64,000 bases of DNA from Martelella mediterranea (GTDB lineage Bacteria > Pseudomonadota > Alphaproteobacteria > Rhizobiales > Rhizobiaceae). Both the position numbers and the translations under genes were made by a program. Numbering within the stretch: the stretch's first letter is position 1; every line of letters starts with the position of its first letter. Below are positions 17,963 to 22,596 of the stretch, piece after piece. The stretch covers positions 1 through 64,000 of the forward strand of contig NZ_JAINWJ010000045.1 in NCBI RefSeq assembly GCF_021021415.1, in the 5' to 3' direction. Under the pieces are notes generated by a model. It ran no database searches. It saw only the letters and a program-made list of their open reading frames with translations, and was not told the DNA's origin.

Positions 17963-18260
17963 GGCTGGCTTCTCAAAGGCTTGTCCTGTGGCCGTGTTCT
18001 TGCCGGCCTGAAGTTTCGGTCATCCCCTGCTTTTTTGTCCCCTGTGGAAAGCGCGAAAGAAATCCCGCGTGCATGACGGTTCAACTCTCGGTTGGTAGCC
18101 GTTGCCGGTGGCGAGGGGTCATCTTCACGGTCATCGGCAATTTCCCAAGACCGATTCGCCGGGCCGGCACATGCTGCATCAGCACTGTTCGCCCGTTCCG
18201 GCCTGTATTTTTTCCCTGTCACAATGCGTTAACCCTGAATGTGGAAAACAGGTCCACGAA
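17963..18260. other. Non-coding region between SURF1 and the nrd regulatory region
   Basis: About 300 bp with no supported gene. A TTAACC stretch near 18229 is only half of a CtrA-like site. The DNA becomes AT-richer towards 18260, where the NrdR boxes begin. No hairpin with a T-tract was seen for the SURF1 transcript. Confidence 0.4.
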
Positions 18261-18307
18261 ACACTATATATGGTTGGTTCAGGCATTCCAGTTCGCAGAT
18301 ATTGTGT
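18261..18307 (+). promoter_or_regulatory. Tandem NrdR boxes of nrdHIEF
   Basis: Box 1 is ACACTATATATGGTTG (18261-18276) and box 2 is TTCGCAGATATTGTGT (18292-18307). The family consensus is close to ACACWATATATWGTGT; box 1 keeps the left half and box 2 the right half. The starts are 31 bp apart (15-bp spacer), the three-helical-turn spacing typical of NrdR regulation. They should overlap the promoter, which NrdR represses when dATP is plentiful. Confidence 0.75.
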
Positions 18308-18652
18308 TATGGTGAGTCTATCGAATCAATGCTGACACGTCAGCGGCGTCCGGTTCTCAGGTTTTTTGAGTCTCCATAGGCATATGTCGGATTGGTGTTC
18401 CTCGTGGACAGCGCGATTTCTGCCGGCTTCCGGAGAGCCAAAATGCCAGTCCGGTCAATGTGTTCGAGATGTCTGTTGAGAAATGGCGGCGGCGGCCGTT
18501 TGCAACCGCCGACGTTTTGATCAGGCGGAAGCCGGCCATGGGTCCGGGACGAGGCTATGCCGTGTTGGTTGCCAGCCTCGCCAGATGCGCGGGAAGCGCC
18601 GAGGGTTCGCCCGGCGGCGCTTTTTGAAGAAAATGATTATGCGAGGATAACG
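18308..18652 (+). promoter_or_regulatory. Long structured 5' leader of nrdH
   Basis: About 340 nt separate the NrdR boxes from the nrdH ATG. The leader has a small hairpin (18331-18344), a 7-bp stem CGAGGCT/AGCCTCG (18550-18556 with 18574-18580), and an intrinsic terminator (18595-18625). The segment CCTCG at 18576-18580 can pair either upstream with that stem or downstream with CGAGG at 18600-18604 inside the terminator, so mutually exclusive folds are possible. I looked for cobalamin and TPP riboswitch cores and did not find them. GAGGAT at 18642-18647 is the ribosome binding site. Confidence 0.5.
18595..18625 (+). terminator. Intrinsic terminator 28 nt before nrdH
   Basis: AGCGCCG pairs with CGGCGCT, an inner GGG-TTCG-CCC caps it with a UUCG tetraloop, and TTTTT follows directly. 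The fold is very stable and lies between the only recognisable promoter region and the nrdH start, so it should act as an attenuator rather than as the end of the distant SURF1 unit. Confidence 0.75.
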
Positions 18653-18874
18653 ATGAAGATCACTGTCTATTCCAAACCGGCTTGCGTGCAGTGCAATGCA
18701 ACGACCCGCGCGCTGGAGCGCAAGGGCCTCGACTATGAAGTGGTTGATGTGTCGGTGGACAACGATGCCTATGATCAGGTCGTTGGCATGGGCTATCGGC
18801 AGGTCCCGGTCGTCGTCGCTGGCGAACAGCACTGGTCGGGCTTCCGTCCGGACATGATCGGCGCACTTGCCTGA
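18653..18874 (+). CDS. nrdH: NrdH-redoxin
   Basis: A 73-residue glutaredoxin-like protein that reduces NrdE, itself reduced by thioredoxin reductase. The redox motif is CVQC at residues 11-14 (YSKPACVQCNAT), and the C-terminal HWSGFRPDMI matches NrdH proteins. The ATG at 18653 has GAGGAT six bases upstream; a longer in-frame reading would run into the terminator stem and is rejected. It is the first gene of nrdHIEF. Confidence 0.95.
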   Translation: MKITVYSKPACVQCNATTRALERKGLDYEVVDVSVDNDAYDQVVGMGYRQVPVVVAGEQHWSGFRPDMIGALA

Positions 18875-18885
18875 CCATGAATGCC

Positions 18886-18947
18886 GCCGGCTGATAAGCC
18901 GGCGAAGCCTGAAGAAGGCGTTGCGCCGCATCCATGCGGCGGGCGCC
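18886..18947 (+). other. Two hairpins between nrdH and nrdI
   Basis: GCCGGCT-GATA-AGCCGGC (18886-18903) is followed by CGCCGCAT-CC-ATGCGGCG (18924-18941), the latter extendable by GGCG/CGCC (18917-18920 with 18944-18947). Neither has a T-tract. They may block 3' exonucleases and so raise nrdH mRNA over nrdIEF, an inference. Confidence 0.5.
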
Positions 18948-19004
18948 TGAGCGATCAGACGGCGCGTCAGACGGGCGCGCCGTGTTGGTGAAGAGGATAA
19001 GAGG

Positions 19005-19406
19005 ATGACGGGCATGCTCGTCTATTATTCCAGCGCTACGGGCAACACCCATCGTTTCGTGACCAAGACAGGCCTTCCGGCAAAGCGTCTCGGCCCTCAG
19101 GGCGACACGAAAAAGGTGGACGAGCCCTATGTGCTGGTCGTTCCCACCTATGCCGGCGGGGACGGCAGGGGAGCGGTGCCGAAACCGGTCATCCAGTTCC
19201 TCAACGATCCGGAGAACAGGGCGCTGGTTCGCGGCGTCATCGCCTCCGGAAACACGAATTTCGGAAATACATACGGCATTGCCGGCGATATCATCGCGGC
19301 AAAATGCAAGATACCGTACCTCTATCGTTTCGAGCTTCTCGGCACGGAAGAGGATGTCAACAACGTCAGACAGGGGCTGGAAGAGTTTTGGAAACGGCAG
19401 AATTGA
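19005..19406 (+). CDS. nrdI: NrdI flavodoxin-like protein
   Basis: A 133-residue flavoprotein that supplies the oxidant for assembling the manganese-tyrosyl radical cofactor of NrdF. The FMN phosphate loop [12 protein letters not shown] is at residues 6-17 and the family segment PTYAGG and [14 protein letters not shown] follow. Length is typical. AAGAGGAT precedes the ATG. The nrdE ATG lies two bases after its stop. Confidence 0.95.
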
Positions 19407-19408
19407 GG

Positions 19409-22596
<3,188 letters not shown>

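Follow-up and report, generated by a model that had tools for sequence, protein, structure and literature searches.

A candidate intrinsic terminator in the NrdR-type leader of the Martelella nrdHIEF operon

NrdR sets the level of ribonucleotide reductase, and many Alphaproteobacteria appear to use a B12 riboswitch located before nrdH as well. In Martelella the same leader lacks this riboswitch and contains a terminator, which makes the genus a natural case for asking how an essential operon is tuned without B12 sensing. If the terminator were conditional, it would constitute a second RNA-level control of the class Ib reductase; if fixed, it would be an ordinary set-point. We analyzed a stretch of 64,000 nucleotides from Martelella mediterranea (contig NZ_JAINWJ010000045.1, hereafter the window) together with the nrdH loci of other genomes. 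The parts of the operon and its leader described below lie on the forward strand.

The window encodes the gene order nrdH-nrdI-nrdE-nrdF (18653-22596), comprising nrdH (18653-18874; TIGR02194, 104 bits), nrdI (19005-19406; TIGR00333, 163.5 bits), nrdE (19454-21598, its start codon being approximate; TIGR04170, 1275 bits), and nrdF (21616-22596; TIGR04171, 478 bits). We found nrdH in each of the 13 Martelella genomes searched, and the NrdH protein of the window shares 90-100% identity with that of the 12 other genomes; its five best-matching named relatives are Martelella as well. The 13 loci are referred to as L001-L013, L001 being the window's own and L002 a near-copy of it. Upstream of nrdH there are two NrdR-like boxes, which were scored against ACACWATATATWGTGT, the sequence that we take to be the NrdR box consensus. 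Box 1 (18261-18276) has 3 mismatches in 16 positions and is an invariant run across five Martelella representatives. Box 2 (18292-18307), 31 nt after box 1, is weak, with 6 mismatches in 16 positions (4-6 of 16 in the other 12 Martelella). The genome of the window also harbors an nrdR gene. These paired boxes, the second of them weak, and the nrdR gene suggest that the operon belongs to the NrdR regulon, with a predicted promoter overlapping box 2, and thus support an earlier note on this DNA, which had placed an NrdR-controlled promoter upstream of a terminator.

Transcripts from this promoter would carry a 5' leader of approximately 340 nt (18310-18652), the start of which is placed from the NrdR-like boxes; the approximately 340 nt between the boxes and nrdH contain no convincing gene. 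The predicted Shine-Dalgarno sequence of nrdH, CGAGGA (18642-18647), lies within a 21-nt run (18632-18652) that is invariant in the five representatives. Inside this run there is a mini-ORF, ATGATTATGCGAGGATAA (18633-18650), that stops 2 nt before the nrdH start; it is kept in the eight closest genomes and similar in L006, and is not found in the same form in L010-L013. At the other end of the leader, three GANTC sites (18314, 18323, and 18368; 18314-18372 overall) are located at or after the inferred transcription start. GANTC is the methylation motif of CcrM. At least one site is present in 13/13 Martelella leaders and three in eight of them, with about 1.6 expected per 420 nt. A GANTC begins 16-19 nt after box 2 in L001, L006, L010, L011, and L013, the five loci in which the distance was worked out. 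The number of sites is thus unremarkable, but their fixed position is notable, and cell-cycle control of nrdHIEF is possible.

The main feature of the leader is a hairpin with an adjoining U tract (18593-18625), composed of a stem at 18593-18623 with the sequence GAAGCGCCG-A-GGG-UUCG-CCC-GG-CGGCGCUUU and five U's at 18621-18625, 27 nt before nrdH. Both hallmarks of an intrinsic terminator, a GC-rich hairpin and an adjoining U tract, are present. The hairpin has a folding energy of -23.9 kcal/mol in a 43-nt context, where 5 of 200 shuffled sequences were equally stable, and ranks fourth in stability among the 36 sites with a hairpin of -12 kcal/mol or below followed by T4 on both strands of the 64-kb window. 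The excess is weaker in a 57-nt context (p 0.08 in the window strain; p ≤ 0.05 in 6/13 Martelella). A simple consensus terminator scan did not list this hairpin, owing, we think, to its internal loop. The earlier note had described a very stable UUCG-capped terminator between the NrdR-controlled promoter and nrdH: the stable hairpin, the U5 tract and the NrdR-like boxes support the element and its position. The cap is not the exceptionally stable tetraloop C(UUCG)G, however; in the window the loop is G(UUCG)C, with UUCG closed by a G-C pair, and it varies between species.

A hairpin ending approximately 26-31 nt before nrdH is found in 11 of the 13 Martelella, and a run of 4-6 U's at its 3' foot in nine (L001-L005 and L007-L010); the U run is missing after the hairpin of L006 and L013, and L011 and L012 lack both elements. 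Five divergent representatives share without change the stretch CGGCGCUUUU, which covers the 3' arm and the first U's, and also CGGCGCTTTT, compared with an upstream spacer that is 31% invariant. The eight outer pairs are paired in all seven distinct sequences of the closest clade, with zero changes on both sides of a pair; one stem position is U-A in L006 and L013 and U-G in L003, in place of C-G. Covariation of this stem across nine sequences, two of them misaligned, was not above shuffles, and two slid versions scored higher. In L005, L008, and L009, an overlapping hairpin that ends at -43 is more stable than any other simple hairpin of the region. Finally, a covariance model of the 3' leader gave 12 matches in 247 genomes of the family, two of which are Martelella nrdH leaders. 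Nine of the ten remaining matches were inspected by eye, and since seven of these look like plain stem-plus-T-tract terminators, the Martelella hairpin appears to have the usual architecture of terminators in this family.

Since the hairpin is kept in L006 and L013 without a U run, it may have a role apart from termination. It could be a structural element before the ribosome site that does not terminate transcription, and instead leaves the Shine-Dalgarno sequence accessible, or serves to protect or trim the end of the mRNA. The invariance of the 21 nt before the start codon is consistent with such a role, as is a comparison with 25 other Rhizobiales leaders, in which the best simple hairpin ranges from -9.0 to -19.4 kcal/mol and none (0/25) has an adjoining T4, although this search, run without a shuffled control, always returns something and 13 of the 25 hairpins are weaker than -13 kcal/mol. 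In contrast, the U run is kept in 9/13 Martelella and, like the 3' arm, does not vary within the closest clade. We regard a purely structural role as unlikely.

The genomic neighborhood raises another explanation. On the same strand, 5' of nrdH, the window encodes a cyoB-type oxidase and a SURF1-like protein (below cut-off with the SURF1 profile), and the hairpin could insulate nrdHIEF from read-through of this upstream operon. A relative of the SURF1-like gene is located at most 1.5 kb upstream in 9/13 Martelella, and in the window no T4 hairpin of -12 kcal/mol or below lies between the SURF1-like gene and the NrdR-like boxes. However, the terminator sits after the nrdH promoter, so that it would stop nrdH transcripts as well. 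L010 has the U run without a SURF1-like neighbor, and L006 has the neighbor without the U run. We regard insulation as highly improbable.

We also analyzed the leader as a whole. Its fold is no better than that of shuffled sequences (z -0.88, with 20 of 100 shuffles equally stable), and it includes a second terminator-like hairpin followed by T4 in its middle (18480-18518; -18.9 kcal/mol). Among five representatives, 61% of the 5' leader and 47% of the 3' leader are invariant, as compared with 31% of the upstream spacer and 58% of nrdH third codon positions. The contrast is smaller in the pairwise comparison of L001 with L005 (identity of 0.64 in the spacer, 0.76 in the 5' leader, and 0.64 in the 3' leader), and identity falls to only 0.27-0.45 in the four distant Martelella species tested, L012 being left out of this comparison. 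Some constraint thus exists within the closest clade, mostly in short blocks, and no core conserved across the genus was found. With the leader as query, blastn over 297 family genomes matched it at full length in G000 and G008 only; the other matches are of 21-61 nt (E 5e-5 to 0.01), with at least five Martelella among the matches listed.

Several coding or pairing candidates within the leader were rejected. A leader peptide starting at 18443 has its start codon replaced by ATA in L003 and by ACG in L008, and its frame is shifted in L004. L008 does have an in-frame ATG two codons before the position equivalent to 18443, and the ORF has a good Shine-Dalgarno sequence in some strains; the differences between L005 and L008, read by eye, are mostly amino-acid-changing. 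No leader ORF conserved across the relatives was seen in a reading made by eye. An N-terminal extension of NrdH (ORF 18557-18874) is broken by T4/T5/T6 differences in close relatives, and a UUUGCA-UGCGAG pairing over the ribosome site was judged by hand to be a chance-level match and was dropped.

If the terminator acts as an attenuator, its strength could be fixed or could respond to a signal. For the latter, the upstream stem, an antiterminator formed by the 3' arm of that stem with the 5' arm of the terminator, and the terminator itself would be mutually exclusive, and a ligand, a protein or the state of the cell would choose among them. The upstream stem (18550-18580; arms 18550-18555 and 18575-18580) speaks for such a conditional attenuator. 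In the eight closest genomes it carries two compensated pairs, with five cells changed on both sides; 3 of 500 shuffles had as many such cells and 16 of 500 had a score as high, the number of pairs being no higher than in shuffles, and the stem scores far above each of six slid versions. This backs the upstream stem of the earlier note and suggests that it is conserved, in the eight closest genomes only.

The evidence for the competing pairing is mixed. The CCUCG/CGAGG complementarity proposed earlier (18576-18580 with 18600-18604) exists in the window, and 77% of its cells are paired, above each of six slid versions (37-54%). It has one pair changed on both sides, and 24 of 500 shuffles reach its covariation score. 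In contrast, two of the six slid versions exceed that score. In duplex-energy calculations, duplexes between the terminator 5' arm and the preceding 60 nt fell within the shuffled range in all 11 leaders (p 0.18-0.85), so that in none of them is the local pairing stronger than with dinucleotide-shuffled upstream sequence. This test and the folds of the full leader covered 11 loci, L011 and L012 being left out as they have no hairpin there. In the full-leader folds, the alternative partner of the terminator 5' arm differs between species, and the preference for the terminator ranges from 11.2 kcal/mol in L001 to less than 2 kcal/mol in L008, L009, L010, and L013; the first value argues against a conditional attenuator and the small margins in 4/11 leaders are in line with one. 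Local nascent folds, computed for ten leaders (without L002, as a near-copy of L001, L011, and L012), likewise point both ways: the antiterminator is the best fold in four (L005, L007, L009, and L010), differing in L005 and L009 by no more than 0.2 kcal/mol from the fold with an intact upstream stem, whereas in L001 the upstream 3' arm and the terminator 5' arm are not paired with each other. Leader invariance (0.61 and 0.47) exceeds that of the spacer (0.31), yet is about equal to that of nrdH third codon positions (0.58) or lower.

Covariation, the check suggested in the earlier note, was thus found in the upstream stem, mixed for the named pairing, and not above shuffles for the terminator stem. 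The proposed switch between termination and read-through was not demonstrated, given the partners that vary by species, the duplexes within the shuffled range in 11/11 leaders and the mixed record of the named pairing. We consider a conditional attenuator doubtful, albeit slightly more plausible than a purely structural role for the hairpin.

Regarding the signal itself, the earlier note had suggested that the leader may hold a ligand sensor. At the gathering cut-off, no Rfam family was detected in the 64-kb window or in 16 loci. Searched up to E 5, the region 18200-18700 gave CRISPR-DR29 as its best match (16.5 bits against a cut-off of 39; E 1.3), along with RF_site1 (E 4.4) and Six3os1_1 (E 4.6), all three of which we take as chance. 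In ten loci searched up to E 3, the one match was Pseudomon-groES (E 0.86) in L010, located in and after the end of nrdH and outside the leader. A covariance model of the 3' leader (R1) recovered a single one of five distant Martelella and had no match in 14 other loci. With chance-level Rfam matches, conservation confined to the closest clade and a model that finds 1/5 distant Martelella, the suggestion of a ligand sensor is unsupported, and the leader does not appear to contain an aptamer conserved across the genus.

The picture is different in related bacteria. Beyond the closest loci, the Rfam scan covered 39 of 80 loci, whose assignment to orders is partly our assumption. The cobalamin riboswitch (RF00174) is found upstream of nrdH in 25/25 Rhizobiales loci (L036-L060, Martelella and Bartonella apart) and in 12/12 Rhodobacterales loci scanned. 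It was detected before nrdH in none of the 13 Martelella at the gathering cut-off, none of the ten searched at E ≤ 3, neither of two Bartonella (L072 and L076), and, within 1.5 kb upstream of nrdH, none of three further relatives (L014-L016). Judged from these matches, a real ligand sensor is located in the same leader in many relatives and not in Martelella.

The leaders with the riboswitch show further features of their own. In L036-L060 (25/25), a CGGGGT(G/T)..AUG located after the riboswitch, at approximately -182 to -98, opens a short ORF of 8-20 codons, the last such match in each leader being taken. The predicted peptides include MSIPFPVPPRE and MLIRTSFEFPPG, each followed by a stop codon. 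In those leaders that were read by eye, a CCCCGAA..TTCGGGG hairpin overlaps the ribosome site of the short ORF. This suggests an arrangement of riboswitch, uORF, and nrdH, in that order. Relays through uORFs with B12 riboswitches have been described in M. tuberculosis (PMC11260477); in the open-licence literature, none of this type in Rhizobiales was found among the papers listed. In four Rhodobacterales loci (L062, L082, L086, and L089), the hairpin before nrdH ends in CGUCCUCG, which by eye is complementary to the Shine-Dalgarno region GAGGAC, the complementarity that a translational B12 switch would be expected to show.

The distribution of the B12-dependent reductase NrdJ was also analyzed. 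NrdJ scores above the cut-off in three of the 13 Martelella genomes (G004, G006, and G007; L114-L116) and is not found above it in the other ten; in the genome of the window, nrdE is the only gene that answers to an NrdJ/NrdA-type profile. G004, G006, and G007 have NrdJ beside nrdHIEF, yet no B12 riboswitch before nrdH. Because these three NrdJ genomes are also without the riboswitch, riboswitch loss and NrdJ loss are not strictly matched. One speculative scenario, which we regard as quite improbable, is that Martelella, on giving up B12-dependent DNA precursor synthesis, swapped the nrdHIEF riboswitch for a fast-evolving attenuator that senses dNTPs, manganese or redox, the parts of which would be the upstream stem, the antiterminator and the terminator.

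What was observed directly, a hairpin with a U tract, both conserved in the closest clade, in a leader without the B12 riboswitch of many relatives, is best explained by an intrinsic terminator in the NrdR-type nrdHIEF leader that acts as an attenuator, a reading to which we assign a probability of about 0.5. RNA polymerase would start at the NrdR-type promoter, near 18310, and transcribe approximately 310 nt of leader; some of the transcripts would then stop at 18621-18625, provided that the hairpin terminates in the cell, and the rest would read through into nrdHIEF. A good part of the transcripts must read through, because nrdE is the only gene found with its profile in this genome. The strength of the attenuator is probably fixed or modest, with a stopping fraction that would be for the most part a set-point and not under the control of a ligand; the leader may instead work as a conditional switch. 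In favor of the terminator we counted the stable hairpin with U5, the presence of a hairpin in 11/13 Martelella and of the U run in 9/13, the invariant 3' arm, the likeness to ordinary terminators of the family, nrdE as the only gene answering to its profile, and the lack of both a known RNA family above cut-off and a conserved leader ORF. Against it we counted the four of 13 Martelella without a U run (L006, L011, L012, and L013), the 57-nt fold energies with p > 0.05 in 7/13, the window strain included, the lack of a both-sided stem change in the closest eight, a U run only 4-6 long, and the preference of L005, L008, and L009 for the overlapping hairpin ending at -43.

In classical attenuators and terminator-type riboswitches, a stem in the leader precedes a terminator that adjoins the first gene. 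The Martelella leader resembles them in having a leader stem and then a terminator beside nrdH, and differs in being without a clearly supported antiterminator, a conserved leader peptide or an aptamer. With the RF00174 leaders of alphaproteobacterial nrdH it shares the gene, the place after an NrdR-like box and the long leader, whereas in the 25 Rhizobiales loci the riboswitch is followed by a short ORF, and the hairpin preceding nrdH lacks an adjoining T4. A B12 riboswitch has also been described for Streptomyces nrdABS (PMC4991794, citing Borovok 2006); there, as proposed here, a reductase operon is controlled at the RNA level through its leader, and Streptomyces differs in its class of reductase and in having an aptamer, none being found in the Martelella leader. 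In the open-licence literature, no terminator in an alphaproteobacterial nrdH leader was found among the papers listed. In build, the Martelella hairpin resembles other intrinsic terminators of the Rhizobiaceae, whose GC stems are likewise preceded by A's and followed by T's; unlike them, it stands between a promoter and the start codon.
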